Below are positions 1,626 through 15,667 of a stretch of 25,185 bases of DNA, piece after piece. The notes under the pieces are model-generated. The model saw only the letters and a program-made list of their open reading frames with translations. It was not told where the DNA came from and did no database searches. Both the position numbers and the translations under genes were made by a program. Source of the DNA: a virus; the IMG/VR virus record IMGVR_UViG_3300013137_000093, positions 1-25,185 of that record. One strand, given 5' to 3'. How positions within the stretch are numbered: position 1 is the first letter of the stretch; every line of letters begins with the position of its first letter.

Positions 1626-4340
1626 ATGGCTGATGGAAACGATGCCAAACCAGGCAGAAAACCGTTAGACTACTCGGTTTACGATCCGGATATAATTCCT
1701 CCACCTGAACTTGTACCCAGGGCCACCGGTTTTAACTATACTCTTGAGCAGCGGATCCAGATGCATAAGTTGCAGGAAGAAATACAGGCGCGGGATTGGC
1801 AGATACAGCAAGCCGCTCTTCCTCCGGAAGAAAGGACTTTACCCCCTCCAGATTTCAACTGGTTATCTCTTGAGGCTCTCCTTGCAGGTCAATACTGGAG
1901 CGGTGCAAGGATGGCTGAAATACAGGAAGCCCTCAAGACCGGCCAGTATAAACCAATCTCAAAAGAGATTAAGGAAAGAATAAGTCCAGGGGATATACTC
2001 TTCCCTGAAATCCCGACAAAAACGGAATATCAGACCGAATGGGATAAACGTGTTGAACAAATGCAGAAAGAAGGGAAACTTCCGCAGATACCGGAACAAA
2101 AAGATTATACAGGTGTCTGGAGGTTTGCAGCAAATGTCATTTTCGATCCTGTAACATGGGTAACAGGAGGTGCAGGAAAAGCAGTATCTTTTGTTACTTC
2201 TACAGGCAAGAAGATCCATCTTACTGATGAAGGCGTAAAAGCGTTAGCTAAATCAGGATTCGTCTCGAAGGTGACTAATACCCTGGGCGAGACGAAATAT
2301 TTCATCAATCCTGAATCGAAGCATACATTCTCTAAACTCCTGAGAGATCCTGCATTAGCGAAGAGATACGTTGCTCCCGAAGGTCTCAAATTTCTGGGAA
2401 AAGAGATCGTGCCGAAACAATATCTCCCGTGGACTTTTATTGTTCCAAAAGCTGCAGAGTCCATGAAAGGTATAAAACAGGGAATTGACCCGACAATATC
2501 TGCTATAAAACGAGTATTCCGCAATTCATTCAATAAACCTCCGCAGGTATATGCGCCTGAATATACTGCCTTAAAACTTGCTTATGAAGGCAATCTGGCA
2601 GTCGCTAAGAAGACGATCGAGAGGAACATAGACGAATTGATCGTGGATGCAGAAAAAACACTTAAAGGCTTTCCTAATGCGAGAAAGATACTTACGGAGT
2701 ATATTGAGAACCCCGCCATAAGAGACCATTTCCCTCAACTCGAAGGTCTTGCCGTGAGATTCGAAGAACTGCACAAACAAAGGGCAGCACTCGAACAGGC
2801 TTATGGGATTCTCACGAGCACACGGGTAAACTATATCCGGCATTATCTGACCGTCCAGGCTAAATATATGCTGGGTAAACTCGGGAAGTATAAACCAACA
2901 ACAATGCCGGCGCCGTTCTCGATGCAGAGGACCATCAAAGGCACTATCCACCAGATCAATAAAGAAGCAGCAGAGAAATACGGGGTTAAATTCTTCAATG
3001 ATGATGCCTTTTTCCTTCTACAGAAACGGGTTTTTGAATCAGAAACAGCAATCCAGACAGCAGAATTCGTAGCGAAAATAAAACTGCAGTTCGGCAAATC
3101 CGCCAAGGATGCTGCCAGATTTCCTGGGTATGTGAAATCCACTATTCCACAACTTAAAGATGTTTACCTCCCGAAAGAAATAGAGTTGGCATTGAAAACA
3201 GACAAAGATGTACAGTTTCTCCTTAGATCCATGGGGAAACAGAGCACAAAAGAAATCGCATCAAAGGTTATACTTGCTCCTCTGAAATTTGGATACGATG
3301 CGAATAAAACCGTCACCGGTATTTTTCAAAGAATTGTTACACGGTATTTCCCCGCGTTCTATGCTCTGAACTATTACGGTGGGAAATTCATGGCTTATGT
3401 ATTTGGTGAAGCCGGTGGGATAGAAGCAGAGAAAGCCACTATTAATATAATGCGCGGCAAAAAAGTAATTGTCACAAGCAAGACAGGATTAAAATATACT
3501 GCTGACGATATAAAGAAGATCGCACAGGATGGGGGGATATACAAACAGATCCCGCAAGGTGTGGAATCGGCGCAAATGGAAGAAAAACTTACCCAACTCG
3601 GCAGACTTGAAGAAGTAAACATTCGCATGTCTATGCTGATCAGTCGGTTAAAAGAAGGAGATATGCCCGCTGATGCTCTTAAATATGTGAACAAATACCA
3701 GTTCGATTACACCAAAGAGTTAGGGAATTTTGAACAGTTCATGGCGTCGGTAATTCCTTTCTGGAGATGGCAATCTAATATTATTCCATTAATGGCGCAG
3801 ATGATGGTTGAGCAACCGGGAAAGATAGCTGCATGGACTAAACTAATGCAACTAACCTGGCAATCACCAGAGGCGCAGGTCGCCTTACCGTTTATGCCTG
3901 CATGGGCGTCTGCAAAGTACCTCTATTATATTGGAGGAAACCGGAGCGAAGTAATGAGTATTCAGACCCCTATCGAATCTGCAACCACTGCTTTAACGAG
4001 ATTGAATAGTCCACTCAATATGACGCAGTTCCTTGCTCCACAGCTTCAGGCGCCAATAGAGTTGGCGCGAGGTCGGGAGACATGGAGCGGAAAGAATATT
4101 ACAGATATCCCTTCTTATCTTGCCAATAGATTTTTTTCAAGACATATTCAATTCTGGCAGAAGGCCACAGATCCTAATATACCCTGGTGGGAGAAGACAG
4201 CAGAATTGGGATTGGGAGTGAACATTTATCAGGCAACGGATTGGATAGCATATTCCAATCTTCTTAAACAGAACTCAGAGAGGACAATCAATAATACAAT
4301 ACGAAGATTAGGAGGTACTTATCATGGCTGTGGATTTTGA
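1626..4340 (+). CDS. Large internal virion or tape-measure-position protein
   Basis: 904 residues. N-terminal 130 residues are charged and proline-rich. Around residue 180 there is an IFDPVTWVTGGAGKAVSF segment, a glycine-rich hydrophobic stretch of the type found in large polyvalent and ejected virion proteins. The middle (about 320-400) is helical. Around 570-600 an aromatic block (YFPAFYALNYYGGKFMAYVF) may insert in a membrane. Near residue 700-740, FEQFMASVIPFWRWQSNIIPL resembles the 'IPFYTWxRxNIPLQ' signature I associate with LPD38-like large polyvalent proteins of phages. It occupies the slot where a tape-measure gene is expected, and the tail-tube gene ends 11 bases before it. The ATG at 1626 follows GGGG at 1616-1619; an ATG at 1622 is closed at once by TGA. 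It overlaps the next gene by 17 bases. Confidence 0.55.
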   Translation: MADGNDAKPGRKPLDYSVYDPDIIPPPELVPRATGFNYTLEQRIQMHKLQEEIQARDWQIQQAALPPEERTLPPPDFNWLSLEALLAGQYWSGARMAEIQEALKTGQYKPISKEIKERISPGDILFPEIPTKTEYQTEWDKRVEQMQKEGKLPQIPEQKDYTGVWRFAANVIFDPVTWVTGGAGKAVSFVTSTGKKIHLTDEGVKALAKSGFVSKVTNTLGETKYFINPESKHTFSKLLRDPALAKRYVAPEGLKFLGKEIVPKQYLPWTFIVPKAAESMKGIKQGIDPTISAIKRVFRNSFNKPPQVYAPEYTALKLAYEGNLAVAKKTIERNIDELIVDAEKTLKGFPNARKILTEYIENPAIRDHFPQLEGLAVRFEELHKQRAALEQAYGILTSTRVNYIRHYLTVQAKYMLGKLGKYKPTTMPAPFSMQRTIKGTIHQINKEAAEKYGVKFFNDDAFFLLQKRVFESETAIQTAEFVAKIKLQFGKSAKDAARFPGYVKSTIPQLKDVYLPKEIELALKTDKDVQFLLRSMGKQSTKEIASKVILAPLKFGYDANKTVTGIFQRIVTRYFPAFYALNYYGGKFMAYVFGEAGGIEAEKATINIMRGKKVIVTSKTGLKYTADDIKKIAQDGGIYKQIPQGVESAQMEEKLTQLGRLEEVNIRMSMLISRLKEGDMPADALKYVNKYQFDYTKELGNFEQFMASVIPFWRWQSNIIPLMAQMMVEQPGKIAAWTKLMQLTWQSPEAQVALPFMPAWASAKYLYYIGGNRSEVMSIQTPIESATTALTRLNSPLNMTQFLAPQLQAPIELARGRETWSGKNITDIPSYLANRFFSRHIQFWQKATDPNIPWWEKTAELGLGVNIYQATDWIAYSNLLKQNSERTINNTIRRLGGTYHGCGF

Positions 4341-9106: not shown

Positions 9107-9279
9107 TTTAATCCTTTTTGGTATAGTTCTATCCATGCTTCCCTAATAGCCTGTCTTCTTTCAATCACTACGCCGTATTCTCCCAGGATAGGGGCCACCA
9201 TATTGAGACCGGACAGATGATTATATACACGAGGCATATCACTTCGGTCATGCGCTCGCTTCTGCGTACCCATTGACAT
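9088..9279 (-). CDS. Small unknown protein of the inverted cassette
   Basis: 63 residues from ATG at 9279 (an internal ATG at 9273 is as likely). No clear ribosome site. The first part is basic (GTQKRAHDRSDMPRVYNH); the second is a helical segment, VVIERRQAIREAWIELYQKG. I do not recognise it. It overlaps the 3' end of the methyltransferase-like gene by 32 bases in another frame, so the two were probably cotranscribed on the minus strand, against the direction of everything else in the window. That orientation marks the cassette as a later insertion. Confidence 0.4.
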   Translation of the reverse strand: MSMGTQKRAHDRSDMPRVYNHLSGLNMVAPILGEYGVVIERRQAIREAWIELYQKGLKLFSGK

Positions 9280-9754
9280 AATCGCCTATTTGACCATTGA
9301 TTTTAGATAACACGCTGGCTATTTTATAGTATGGATTATTTTCACCAACTCGCCATAAAGATGTTGAAATTGGTTTTAAACACACCGATTTAGGAACCCA
9401 CGGAGCAATAAATATTATCTTGCCTTTTGGTCTGCAGATTCTAACCAACTCATCAATTAATACAGGATTGGTAAAATCGTATTTATACGGAGGGTCACAT
9501 AGAACTGTTCCAGCGATTCCATCTTTAAAAGGCAGATTGTGAAAATCTCCCATAATATTACACGGTGATCTATTTCCACCACCACATTTTTTAATATCTA
9601 TGCTATTAATATAACTTCTATCAAGTCACTCTCCAATCGAAGATACTCCGCTGCAGATGTGTACCAATGGTTTTTCAGTGCCTTCTATTAGCTTCAACAC
9701 ATCTTTGACATTTTGAACAGTCCAGAACCAGCGTGGATTAAAGTTACAAGCCAT
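9248..9754 (-). pseudogene. Class I SAM-dependent methyltransferase-like gene with in-frame TGA
   Basis: Starting at ATG 9754, after AGAGGT (plus-strand 9758-9763), the frame reads 42 codons to GVSSIGE, then TGA (9626-9628), then continues in the same frame to the end at 9248, 168 codons in all. Both halves belong together: residues 31-36 (VHICSG) look like the SAM-binding loop and residues 87-90 (DPPY) are the catalytic motif of amino-methyltransferases, followed by DFTNPVLIDELVRICRPKGKIIFIAPW, typical of these enzymes. A CGA-to-TGA change would explain the stop. A restart at ATG 9553 gives a 101-residue protein without the SAM loop. Most TGA codons nearby end genes normally, so a decayed gene is more likely than recoding. 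Target unknown (DNA or other). Confidence 0.65.
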
Positions 9755-10997: not shown

Positions 10998-11113
10998 TGT
11001 CACGGCTTCATGATATTCTTTCGGGCAGGAAAAAGAAGCATTCTATCACAGGCGATCCCAAGACGCACAAACAAAAATTCGGCAGGAATCAACCGCATCG
11101 GAGGGTATGGTAA
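10997..11113 (+). CDS. Mini basic protein (38 residues)
   Basis: ATG 10997 shares a base with the preceding stop. The product is very basic (SGRKKKHSITGDPKTHKQKFGRNQPHRR), with a predicted charge that would favour nucleic acid binding. The frame is open further upstream, but the start overlapping the previous stop fits the coupling pattern of this operon. No family recognised. Confidence 0.45.
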   Translation: MSRLHDILSGRKKKHSITGDPKTHKQKFGRNQPHRRVW

Positions 11114-11114
11114 T

Positions 11115-11720
11115 ATGGCATGTGAATCCTGCCCCGCCACATTCTCGCGGAAGAAATGCCTGCATCAGAATTATCCTTCACATCAGGCAGAACTTGCGGC
11201 ATTCCGGAGGGAAATAGATAATCATATTCAAGCGATGGCAGCAGAAGTGTGGCATTCAAAGACAAAAGTACCTGAGTATTCAAAAGTCCCTGCGGGAGCG
11301 ATTCCACAGGTTTATGCTTATCAAAAAGTGTCCATAGGTCAATTGGTAGACCACCAGCATTGCAAGCAGGAAGTTGAGGGTTTGAGTCCCTCTGGATACA
11401 TTCCGGCAGAACCACATCTGCCGGGCAATGGTGCAGGAAGAAATCCGTTTTTTCATTGCCCCTTCAATCCCGTTTCCTGCACCGATTATAATTACTTTGT
11501 TGCACAGGCATTTTCCCACCTCCTGGGGTTTCCACCTGTGCTATTTTTTGATGATATGTTTTACGGTCAAATTGTAAAGAATTCCAGTCATGACTCGAAA
11601 GGGTTTGACACGAGATTCTTGGATGATGACGACTGTCGTCTTACAAACATCCAGGATCGGACTCTCGTTGAAAGTCCGAATATAAACGAGATGAGTAAAG
11701 ATGAGAAAACAAGTATATGA
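11115..11720 (+). CDS. Unknown Cys-rich ORF that contains a tRNA gene
   Basis: From ATG 11115, one base after the previous stop, the frame is open for 201 residues. The first 70 residues look like a gene: CESCPATF and KKCLHQNYP give a metal-site-like start, then a helix (AELAAFRREIDNHIQAMAAE). From 11328 the same DNA folds as a complete tRNA-Ala and then a series of stem-loops, and the translated part there is compositionally odd (FFHCPFNPVSC, VLFFDDMFYG). Either the ORF is real up to about 11320 and the rest is fortuitous, or an RNA gene was inserted in or beside it. No RBS of strength precedes it. Overlaps the next CDS by 20 bases. Confidence 0.4.
   Translation: MACESCPATFSRKKCLHQNYPSHQAELAAFRREIDNHIQAMAAEVWHSKTKVPEYSKVPAGAIPQVYAYQKVSIGQLVDHQHCKQEVEGLSPSGYIPAEPHLPGNGAGRNPFFHCPFNPVSCTDYNYFVAQAFSHLLGFPPVLFFDDMFYGQIVKNSSHDSKGFDTRFLDDDDCRLTNIQDRTLVESPNINEMSKDEKTSI
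11328..11400 (+). tRNA. tRNA-Ala(TGC)
   Basis: Acceptor arms GTGTCCA (11328-11334) and TGGATAC (11393-11399) pair over 7 bp with G3:U70, the alanine identity pair, and A73 follows at 11400. D arm GGTC/GACC (11337-11340 / 11349-11352) with GG in the loop. Anticodon stem CCAGC/GCAGG (11354-11358 / 11366-11370) has one A.A mismatch at the middle pair; loop ATTGCAA gives anticodon TGC at 11361-11363. T arm GAGGG/CCCTC (11376-11380 / 11388-11392) is perfect; the loop has T in place of the usual C56. CCA is not encoded, as in many archaeal tRNAs. It supplies or mimics host alanine tRNA; the two deviations leave its activity open. Confidence 0.8.
11403..11700 (+). ncRNA. Structured segment after the tRNA (stem-loops, interleaved stems)
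   Basis: Clear inverted repeats: CCGGCAGA/TCTGCCGG (11403-11410 / 11417-11424); GGGCAATG/CATTGCCC (11423-11430 / 11454-11461) interleaved with GTGCAGGAA/TTCCTGCAC (11431-11439 / 11474-11482); GCACAGG/CCTGTGC (11502-11508 / 11535-11541) followed by six T; a hairpin at 11618-11655 with inner GACGA/TCGTC; TCGGACT/AGTCCGA (11657-11663 / 11673-11679) interleaved with CTCGTT/AACGAG (11664-11669 / 11685-11690). The density and the interleaving suggest a functional RNA processed with the tRNA, or a leader controlling the gene at 11701. The interleaved pairs could be pseudoknots or alternative folds; the zero-length gap between their 5' arms makes alternatives plausible. No known RNA family recognised. 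Confidence 0.45.
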
Positions 11721-11913
11721 ACTGAGACAAAATCGCAGGGTGCAGGCAATTGGAAAGAGCGCCGCACCCGATGAAGTATCGTCATTGCAAGAAAATATAT
11801 CTTTCGAACATGGAAAAAACTGCCCTGAATGCAGATATTGTGGGGCAATGCTACCGAGAGATGTGAAGTTTCAGGAGATGCATATGCTGCAGAACCATGG
11901 GCTGGTGGTGTAA
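11701..11913 (+). CDS. Small zinc-finger-like protein
   Basis: 70 residues. ATG 11701; ribosome site is weak (GATGAG ten bases before), which fits control by the paired AACGAG element just upstream. The C-terminal half, CPECRYCGAMLPRD...MHMLQNHG, has CxxCxxC plus two histidines and looks like a small C2H2 or zinc-knuckle unit. N-terminus is basic (LRQNRRVQAIGK). Likely nucleic acid binding. Stop is one base before the next start. It overlaps the preceding open frame by 20 bases. Confidence 0.55.
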   Translation: MRKQVYELRQNRRVQAIGKSAAPDEVSSLQENISFEHGKNCPECRYCGAMLPRDVKFQEMHMLQNHGLVV

Positions 11914-13770: not shown

Positions 13771-14228
13771 AACTCACCCTTTCCGGTCGCCCCATCGGCA
13801 TGAAGATCGATAAAGATGATAAGACGTTCGTCGCTCTTGAGATCCCGTGCGATAACATCAATCTGCAGGAGGTCCTGCCGTTCGTGAAATTAGAGTGTGC
13901 CCTGCATATACAGAGTTCTAAACGTGACCTGAACACAAAGGGATATATCGAGGAGCTGGCGCTAAAGACAAAGCTGAAACTCAAAATTCGCTGCACCGAA
14001 GATGTGGATCTGAATATCGTCAATCAACTCATCGCCGATCCCGAAGTGACGAGCATTGTTTTCAATGACGAGCAATCATCGCTGACCGATTTTGAGACTG
14101 CGGTAAAGGCCGAATACCACGGCAAGAATAAAGTCCTTAAAACCGCCGTCGCTATGATCAACGAGTTCGGACTGGAAGGCGCAAAGAATGTGTGTGAAGC
14201 CGCAGTCGAAGCGAAAACTACGAGGTGA
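13767..14228 (+). CDS. Unknown protein after the annealing gene
   Basis: 153 residues; ATG overlaps the preceding stop (ATGA) and GGAGGT (13754-13759) precedes it. The first half is beta-rich (MKLTLSGRPIGMKIDKDDKTFVALEIP, LKLKIRCTE); the second half is helical (DFETAVKAEYHG, LKTAVAMINEFGLEGAKNVCEAA). No family recognised. Position between the annealing protein and ParB suggests a DNA metabolism partner such as a single-strand binding or exonuclease-helper protein; there is no motif to confirm this. Confidence 0.5.
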   Translation: MKLTLSGRPIGMKIDKDDKTFVALEIPCDNINLQEVLPFVKLECALHIQSSKRDLNTKGYIEELALKTKLKLKIRCTEDVDLNIVNQLIADPEVTSIVFNDEQSSLTDFETAVKAEYHGKNKVLKTAVAMINEFGLEGAKNVCEAAVEAKTTR

Positions 14229-14233
14229 TTTTC

Positions 14234-15667
14234 ATGGCTACCGAGATAGGAGTATTGCAAATCATCTTATCTGGCTGGAATCCGCGCAAATCGTTTGAAC
14301 CTGAAGCGTTCGAGGAACTGAAGAAGAGCATCCAGGAATATGGAATCCTGGAGCCATTGATAGTCCGCCCTGTTCCTGAGGAGGGATATGAACTTGTTGC
14401 CGGTGAACGCAGGCTCAGGGCAGCCCAAGAACTCGGACTTGAACAGGTCCCTGTCGTGGTCAAGAATCTCTCTGACCGTGCGGTGCGCGAGATCATGCTG
14501 ATCGAGAACTTGCAGAGGTCCCAGCTGGAACCACTTGAGGAAGCTGAAGCACTTCGGGTACTGCTGCAGGATGATGCCATTACCCAGGAGGCCCTCGGTA
14601 AAAAGCTCGGGAAGAGCCAGGCATGGATAGCCAACCGTCTCAGACTGCTCAAAGCGCCGGATGAACTAAAAGAGTTGATTATTTCCCGGCAAATAACGCC
14701 GAAGCATGCTGTTGCTCTGTTGCAATATACCGAATATCCTGTCTTCAAAGAAATTATCCTGCCTGATTTGAAAAGGGATTTGCAGAAAGGAGAACAGGTT
14801 TCTGTCAATCAACTTGAGAATGATATCAGGGTACATATACGATATCATGCCGATGAGCAGGTTCTACCGCTGCATGACTTCCCTTATGATGTCGATCAAT
14901 ACCGGGACTTTTTTGACTTCTCGAAGTGCGAAGGCTGCAAGGATATCTATGCACTTCCTGTAGAAGAGGAAGAGATTGAGAAAGACGATCCAGACTATGA
15001 CCCGGCTGATAGGCAGGAACCTGAACGTTTCTGCCTGAACCGGCATTGTTGGTCCGACAAACTCGATGTTGCAAAACAAAAATATGAAAAGGCGCGCGCT
15101 GAGAGAGTCAAAACGATGGGTAGTGACGATACTGTCGATCTCGATACCCTGAAGTACAACGAGTATGAACGTATTGGGAAATGGAGCGCCTGGGACAAGA
15201 CCGAATGTCAGACATGCAAGAGCAAAAAGACCCACCTGGAGTCGGAAACTTGCGAAGGGACTGCTTTCATCTGTCTTGACCCCGAATGCGCTAAACAGAA
15301 GGACGCCGCATATCAGAAAGAGAAAGCAAAGAAAGATAAGGAAAATGTACAGCAGGCATTCGAAACCCTGGATGCATACATTGATAAAATCCAGGTTCTC
15401 AATATTACCGAGACCAGAGGGGTTGCAAAAATTCTTGTGTATCATCTATGGGGTGGGTCAATCAAAACCGCGTTGAAACCCTGGATCAAGAACGCTCGTG
15501 GGGATTCCACTGAGATTGACAGGATCCCAGATGAAGATATTTTGAAGGCGCTTCTGAGGCTTGTATTCGTGCAGCATCTTACAGCGCATAATCAGGGTGT
15601 CGATGTAAAAACAGTTGAAAAAGCAATTGCTTTGTTCGAGGGCAAACCTGCGCCGAAGGAGGGATGA
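14234..15667 (+). CDS. ParB/Spo0J-like DNA-binding protein with paired zinc knuckles
   Basis: 477 residues from ATG 14234, chosen because GAGGTG (14223-14228) lies 6 bases before it; a GTG at 14225 overlapping the previous stop is the alternative. Residues about 1-95 are a ParB/Srx N-domain (NPRKSFEPEAFEELKKSI, LEPLIVRP, LVAGERRLRAAQELG, VMLIENLQR-type helix), followed by the helix-turn-helix ITQEALGKKLGKSQAWIANRLRLL. The C-terminal part has two similar cysteine sets: CEGC (232, 235) with CLNRHC, and CQTC with CLDPEC, like the zinc knuckles of plasmid ParB-type proteins. Normally binds parS-like sites for segregation or regulates transcription. No ParA is in the window. Confidence 0.75.
   Translation: MATEIGVLQIILSGWNPRKSFEPEAFEELKKSIQEYGILEPLIVRPVPEEGYELVAGERRLRAAQELGLEQVPVVVKNLSDRAVREIMLIENLQRSQLEPLEEAEALRVLLQDDAITQEALGKKLGKSQAWIANRLRLLKAPDELKELIISRQITPKHAVALLQYTEYPVFKEIILPDLKRDLQKGEQVSVNQLENDIRVHIRYHADEQVLPLHDFPYDVDQYRDFFDFSKCEGCKDIYALPVEEEEIEKDDPDYDPADRQEPERFCLNRHCWSDKLDVAKQKYEKARAERVKTMGSDDTVDLDTLKYNEYERIGKWSAWDKTECQTCKSKKTHLESETCEGTAFICLDPECAKQKDAAYQKEKAKKDKENVQQAFETLDAYIDKIQVLNITETRGVAKILVYHLWGGSIKTALKPWIKNARGDSTEIDRIPDEDILKALLRLVFVQHLTAHNQGVDVKTVEKAIALFEGKPAPKEG

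Follow-up and report, generated by a model that had tools for sequence, protein, structure and literature searches.

A conserved, folded leader RNA with a predicted pseudoknot ahead of a viral recombination gene run

In the phages T4 and RB69, the operator of gene 32 combines repeated sequence elements with a pseudoknot that precedes the ribosome-binding site; it regulates the single-stranded DNA-binding protein itself, and its pseudoknot lies apart from the Shine-Dalgarno sequence (PMC535899). In the preQ1 riboswitches, a pseudoknot stem sequesters the Shine-Dalgarno sequence more or less completely (PMC11625349). The leader of E. coli rpsO (S15) carries a pseudoknot at the ribosome-binding site, which is recognized by protein and serves autoregulation (PMC3858243).

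Very little has been mapped of how viruses of uncultivated bacteria and archaea regulate their genes at the RNA level. The window, i.e., the whole stretch of DNA analysed (25,185 nt, 25-kb), is the IMG/VR virus record IMGVR_UViG_3300013137_000093 and encodes tail-tube, TerL, portal, RecT, ParB, and RusA proteins. An initial annotation had proposed a single strongly structured RNA at 11403-11700, directly behind a tRNA-Ala. A folded RNA does exist there, but what is conserved of it covers less sequence than proposed and has another position, namely 11581-11703. It is a genuine, uncatalogued, conserved leader RNA directly 5′ of a 70-aa gene. The structured region sits in a gap between small ORFs upstream and a gene run from 11701 downstream, in the order 70-aa, 158-aa, RecT, 153-aa, ParB, and, further on, RusA. 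The larger features are as follows:

11328-11400, + strand: tRNA-Ala(UGC) (TGC), genuine by ARAGORN and Rfam (60.1 bits)
11402-11541, + strand: non-conserved hairpins including a 5′ pseudoknot; arms verified, no alignable counterpart in the relative L121
11581-11703, + strand: conserved leader RNA that runs up to the 70-aa gene and takes in its start codon; matched by blastn to L121 3125-3348 (72%, E 1e-20)
11701-11913, + strand: 70-aa gene of a likely zinc finger, first gene behind the leader; homologue at L121 3259-3456
12373-13770: RecT, third gene of the run
14225-15667: ParB, in the run behind the leader

The relative L121 is part of the 49-kb contig IMG/VR 3300006224_000002 and was found by its TerL (76% identity). 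It encodes homologues of the 70-aa, 158-aa, and RecT proteins in the same order as the window. At the DNA level, L121 matches 11581-11784 of the window with 72% identity over 225 columns (blastn); this match takes in both the 120 bases ahead of the start codon and the first part of the gene. On the 5′ side of the leader, the two viruses give no convincing alignment. As only the 3′ 120 nt align between them, a reading of 11403-11700 as one RNA is not supported.

The conserved stretch does not behave like a coding sequence. The ORF 11010-11720, which runs through the tRNA and the leader, was rejected as a gene; in its conserved part, the codon differences were 9 non-synonymous to 1 synonymous. 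L121 has an open frame that ends at 3183, codon usage gave no coding signal in L121 2895-3165, and a blastp comparison of the two frames was not significant (E 0.11). A homologue that keeps a coding signal across the region would have spoken against an RNA, and L121 has no such signal. The suggestion of a regulatory leader is thus supported for 11581-11703, which covaries with the relative and lacks a coding pattern.

Within the leader, the following elements are distinguished:

11587-11609, + strand: hairpin H1 (11587-11590/11606-11609 and 11592-11596/11601-11605) with a GNRA tetraloop
11610-11616, + strand: linker ACGAGAU between H1 and P2, unpaired in the ground state; exact repeat of 11686-11692
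11617-11656, + strand: hairpin P2 (stem 11617-11625/11648-11656) with a variable apical part
11657-11679, + strand: pseudoknot stem S1 (11657-11663/11673-11679)
11664-11690, + strand: predicted pseudoknot stem S2, 11664-11669 (CUCGUU) with 11685-11690 (AACGAG)
11688-11694, + strand: GAGATGA, resembling a Shine-Dalgarno sequence, with 6 nt between it and the ATG at 11701; L121 has the same letters at the same place

The helices H1, P2, and S1 were obtained with RNAalifold on the two-genome alignment. H1 keeps 9/9 pairs in L121 with one two-sided and three one-sided (G-U) changes, and its tetraloop is GAAA in the window and GCAA in L121. P2 likewise keeps 9/9 pairs, with two two-sided and two one-sided changes; its apical part is 10 nt longer in L121. 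All seven pairs of S1 are kept, and two adjacent ones are changed on both sides (G-C to A-U and A-U to C-G). Hence, the 25 nested pairs are all standard in both genomes despite substitutions at 15 of their 50 positions; five pairs are changed on both sides, five on one side, and none is broken. With the same number of random substitutions, 16.3 pairs survive on average (maximum 24 in 200,000 trials), and five two-sided changes arise in 17/200,000 trials. The consensus fold has a z of −8.25, which was reached by 0/1000 column-shuffled alignments. All these figures are somewhat overstated, as the structure was taken from the same two sequences as the test; sliding the partner strands by 1-3 columns destroys the pairing. 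A pair-count shuffle test, which has little power with two rows, gave the excess at 16/500. Folded alone, the leader has a z of −1.8 in the window, which is only moderately unusual, and of −3.3 in L121. All five one-sided changes give G-U on the + strand, equivalent to an A-C mismatch on the other strand; therefore, selection has acted on the + strand RNA and not on the DNA. The covariation that the initial annotation had asked for in a homologue is present in L121 across 11581-11703, and the comparison of the two sequences shows a + strand RNA that folds in both genomes into H1, P2, and S1.

The statistics of the single sequence point elsewhere. All repeat arms named before are present at their positions. 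At maximal length, the 5′ pseudoknot consists of 11423-11430/11454-11461 with 11430-11439/11474-11483, and the 3′ one of 11657-11663/11673-11679 with 11663-11669/11685-11691. If perfect arms of at least 6 bp with loops up to 60 nt are counted, 11401-11700 has 10 inverted repeats, whereas its dinucleotide shuffles have 3.7 ± 1.9 (5/1000 reach 10); for arms of at least 8 bp, 3 were observed and 0.25 expected (2/1000 shuffles). The region folds with a z of −4.2, and 0/200 dinucleotide shuffles were as stable. That interleaving is uncommon by chance is correct for the 5′ pair, whose 17 bp are matched in 0.3% of shuffles, but not for the 3′ pair, as an interleaved pair totalling at least 13 bp occurs in 21%. 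These statistics therefore favour the 5′ pseudoknot, whereas the comparison with the relative favours the 3′ one: its first stem covaries, and the 5′ pseudoknot (11423-11483) was not found in L121. The 5′ strand of this 17-bp interleaved repeat also overlaps a hairpin at 11403-11424.

In the place of the window's 5′ half, L121 has its own long hairpins with large loops at ~2935-3115 (stems 11-12 bp, loops 32-34 nt), and its stretch 2920-3258 folds with a z of −4.65. The long hairpins of both viruses are far more stable than shuffles and cannot be aligned with each other. The 5′ half may belong to the same leader and evolve fast, or it may be unrelated. The loops of these hairpins, just upstream of the leader in both viruses, are large and G-poor. 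A 10-mer, AATCCGTTTT, is common to window 11402-11541 and L121 2935-3115, and the upstream hairpins of both carry an anti-Shine-Dalgarno-like ACCTCCT (window 11518-11524, one of two + strand copies in the window; L121 ~3048-3054). A scan of the region gave no intrinsic terminator, yet the hairpin 11502-11541 is followed by TATTTTTT.

The tRNA-Ala is present where it had been reported, ahead of the structured region. It has the G3-U70 identity pair and does not encode CCA; its anticodon stem contains an A-A mismatch, and position 56 is U rather than C. No tRNA was found beside the leader copy of L121. By sequence comparison, the tRNA is outside the conserved unit, and the idea of a new viral RNA processed with it is not upheld, as L121 keeps the leader and the gene behind it without a tRNA there.

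Searches for a third copy of the leader, by scans of viral contigs and of genome contigs and by tblastn and blastn in a phage collection, found none, nor did a covariance model over ~1 Mb of related loci and ~400 genomes. The TerL searches gave ~90 loci, with the leader in L121 only. With RecT as the sole query, the viral contigs yielded no relative; an alignment of the 158-aa protein found L121 only, and nothing in the genomes. A DNA pattern of the leader matched the contig of L121 only, and distant blastn of the leader against phages gave short chance matches. From the 5′ pseudoknot, a 14-base DNA pattern gave chance matches only, and a stem pattern matched 28 loci that are otherwise not similar to the region.

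Two candidate copies were rejected. The covariance model, run over the loci and over 398 genomes from the phylum to which a Bathyarchaeota hit belongs, gave one match with E = 4e-4, in locus L258; it has neither P2 nor S1, depends on an A/T-rich stretch around a start codon, and was dismissed as chance. The other is at 2088-2140 of locus L254 (AAACGAGATGA), within an ORF, and likewise has no P2 or S1 helix. At L254 1990-2853 (contig 3300006224_000002, ~41990-42853), a 287-aa ORF contains several W-N-K-G-K-like motifs and carries YHHIHP in its C-terminal part; by eye, it resembles an HNH-type homing endonuclease.

Among the covariance models of Rfam 15, only tRNA reaches its gathering threshold in the window, and the leader of either genome gave nothing above chance even at E up to 5-10. 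The statement that no known RNA family is recognized thus holds for the leader in both viruses.

As to the virus itself, the closest RecT in the phage collection is that of a Methanosarcinales virus (45%), and the TerL relatives are spread over bacteria and one bathyarchaeon. Judging from these relatives, the host may be a bacterium or an archaeon. Elsewhere in the window, a minus-strand ORF at 9248-9553, in a stretch without long plus-strand genes, has a DPPYKYDF motif and may be what remains of a DNA methyltransferase, or the end of one.

The 70-aa protein has the motif C-X2-C-X12-H-X4-H, and its C-terminal 30 residues are modelled as short strands and a helix (pLDDT 81-85). The best fold matches in the PDB are mostly C2H2 zinc fingers, none of them significant. 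From the model, the protein is likely a nucleic-acid-binding finger.

The arrangement of S2 suggests how the leader could act on this gene. CUCGUU lies in the loop of S1, and the 3′ strand AACGAG enters the Shine-Dalgarno region, where S2 covers the first bases only of GAGATGA. The latter has one mismatch to GAGGTGA; other genes of the window have sites of the GAGGT/GGAGGTGA type. The loop lengths L1/L2/L3 are 0/3/5 in the window and 0/3/9 in L121, and with a first loop of 0 nt, one pair of S1 must open. The linker is 7/7 identical in L121, compared with 34/66 for the other unpaired positions. It can form an alternative helix, P-alt, between 11610-11615 and UCUCGU at 11663-11668, to which both ACGAGA copies are exactly complementary. 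S2 and P-alt can both form in both genomes with identical letters; as they are invariant in the two sequences, covariation neither supports nor refutes them. In prefix folding of both genomes, P-alt, stacked on P2, is present until the 3′ strand of S1 has been made, and then S1 takes over. In the full leader, P-alt lies 3.5-4.1 and S2 without S1 0.7-1.0 kcal/mol above the minimum. From this modelling, we infer a pattern that would fit a translational switch with mutually exclusive pairings.

We see about an even chance that the leader 11581-11703 is cis-acting and controls translation of the 70-aa gene through an S2/P-alt switch. With S1 formed, the loop CUCGUU would pair with AACGAG at the ribosome-binding site (S2), and the resulting H-type pseudoknot would block initiation (OFF). 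With S1 incomplete or destabilized, the linker ACGAGA, a copy of the ribosome-binding site, would capture the CUCGUU strand instead, and P-alt, stacked on P2, would leave the ribosome-binding site free (ON). Control of the 70-aa gene could extend to entry into the run behind it (158 aa, RecT, 153 aa, ParB, RusA). What tips the balance might be a factor that binds the leader, such as a small molecule or, in autoregulation, a viral protein from the gene run, or else the speed of transcription and ribosome loading. More tentatively, and with some doubt on our side, this may be a new class of viral leader in which a decoy ACGAGAU and the real site compete for one pseudoknot anti-sequence and which times when a recombination gene run is expressed in the course of infection.

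The same elements can be read without a conformational switch. In a putative protein-binding operator, the zinc-finger protein or RecT would block ribosomes on H1, P2, and the pseudoknot in a gp32-like manner, and ACGAGAU would be a repeated binding site. RecT indeed belongs to the gene run headed by the leader, the first gene encodes a likely nucleic-acid-binding finger, the ACGAGAU repeat lies in positions left unpaired by the nested fold, and the T4 gp32 operator, too, has repeated elements and a pseudoknot ahead of the ribosome-binding site (PMC535899). However, pairing better explains why both ACGAGA copies are exactly complementary to UCUCGU, and the first gene is not a single-stranded DNA-binding protein; we hold the operator to be somewhat unlikely.

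It is rather less probable that the leader senses a ligand as a riboswitch, or metal or temperature as some other kind of sensor, through a pocket in H1, P2, and S1. The compact multi-helix fold with near-isoenergetic alternatives would suit it, as would the invariant unpaired stretches (AUUCCA, ACGAGAU, and most of the S1 loop) and the precedent of preQ1-type pseudoknots, which hide the Shine-Dalgarno sequence in their second stem (PMC11625349). Against it, there is no Rfam riboswitch match at any threshold used, no metabolic gene behind the leader, and an occurrence in two viruses only. A separate non-coding RNA, an mRNA stabilizer, or a ribosome standby site, none of which would repress the adjacent gene, appears very unlikely. 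The strong upstream hairpins in both genomes (z −4.2 in the window, −4.65 in L121) make a longer structured transcript possible, but the conserved sequence takes in the ribosome-binding site and the start of the gene, whose spacing is fixed, and the scan shows no terminator-like site after the leader.

Among the described systems, the leader resembles the T4/RB69 gene 32 operator in being a phage leader upstream of a DNA-recombination gene, with repeated elements and, in the predicted fold, a pseudoknot ahead of the ribosome-binding site. Of the two stems of this predicted pseudoknot, S1 covaries and S2 is invariant. A single-stranded DNA-binding repressor as the regulated gene, a trait of that operator, is absent here, as the first gene encodes a zinc finger and RecT is third. 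Unlike in the gene 32 operator, the predicted S2 reaches into the Shine-Dalgarno sequence, and two extra hairpins precede the pseudoknot. As in preQ1 class I and SAM-II riboswitches, the second H-type stem would use bases of the ribosome-binding site, and alternative folds would set access to it (PMC11625349). The leader differs from these by the two extra hairpins and by a second copy of the ribosome-binding site, further upstream, that would compete with the first, and a preQ1 or SAM-II aptamer core was not found in it by Rfam sequence or covariance-model matches. The predicted pseudoknot at the ribosome-binding site is shared with the rpsO leader, from which it is set apart by a different gene and the lack of an Rfam match. 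What the locus adds is an uncatalogued fold of ~120 nt that has covariation support, is tied to a recombination gene run, and makes a clear mechanistic prediction. By analogy, the leader would work like the known pseudoknot translational regulators while being a member of none by sequence, and it is best called a two-member leader, ordinary in kind and new in form.
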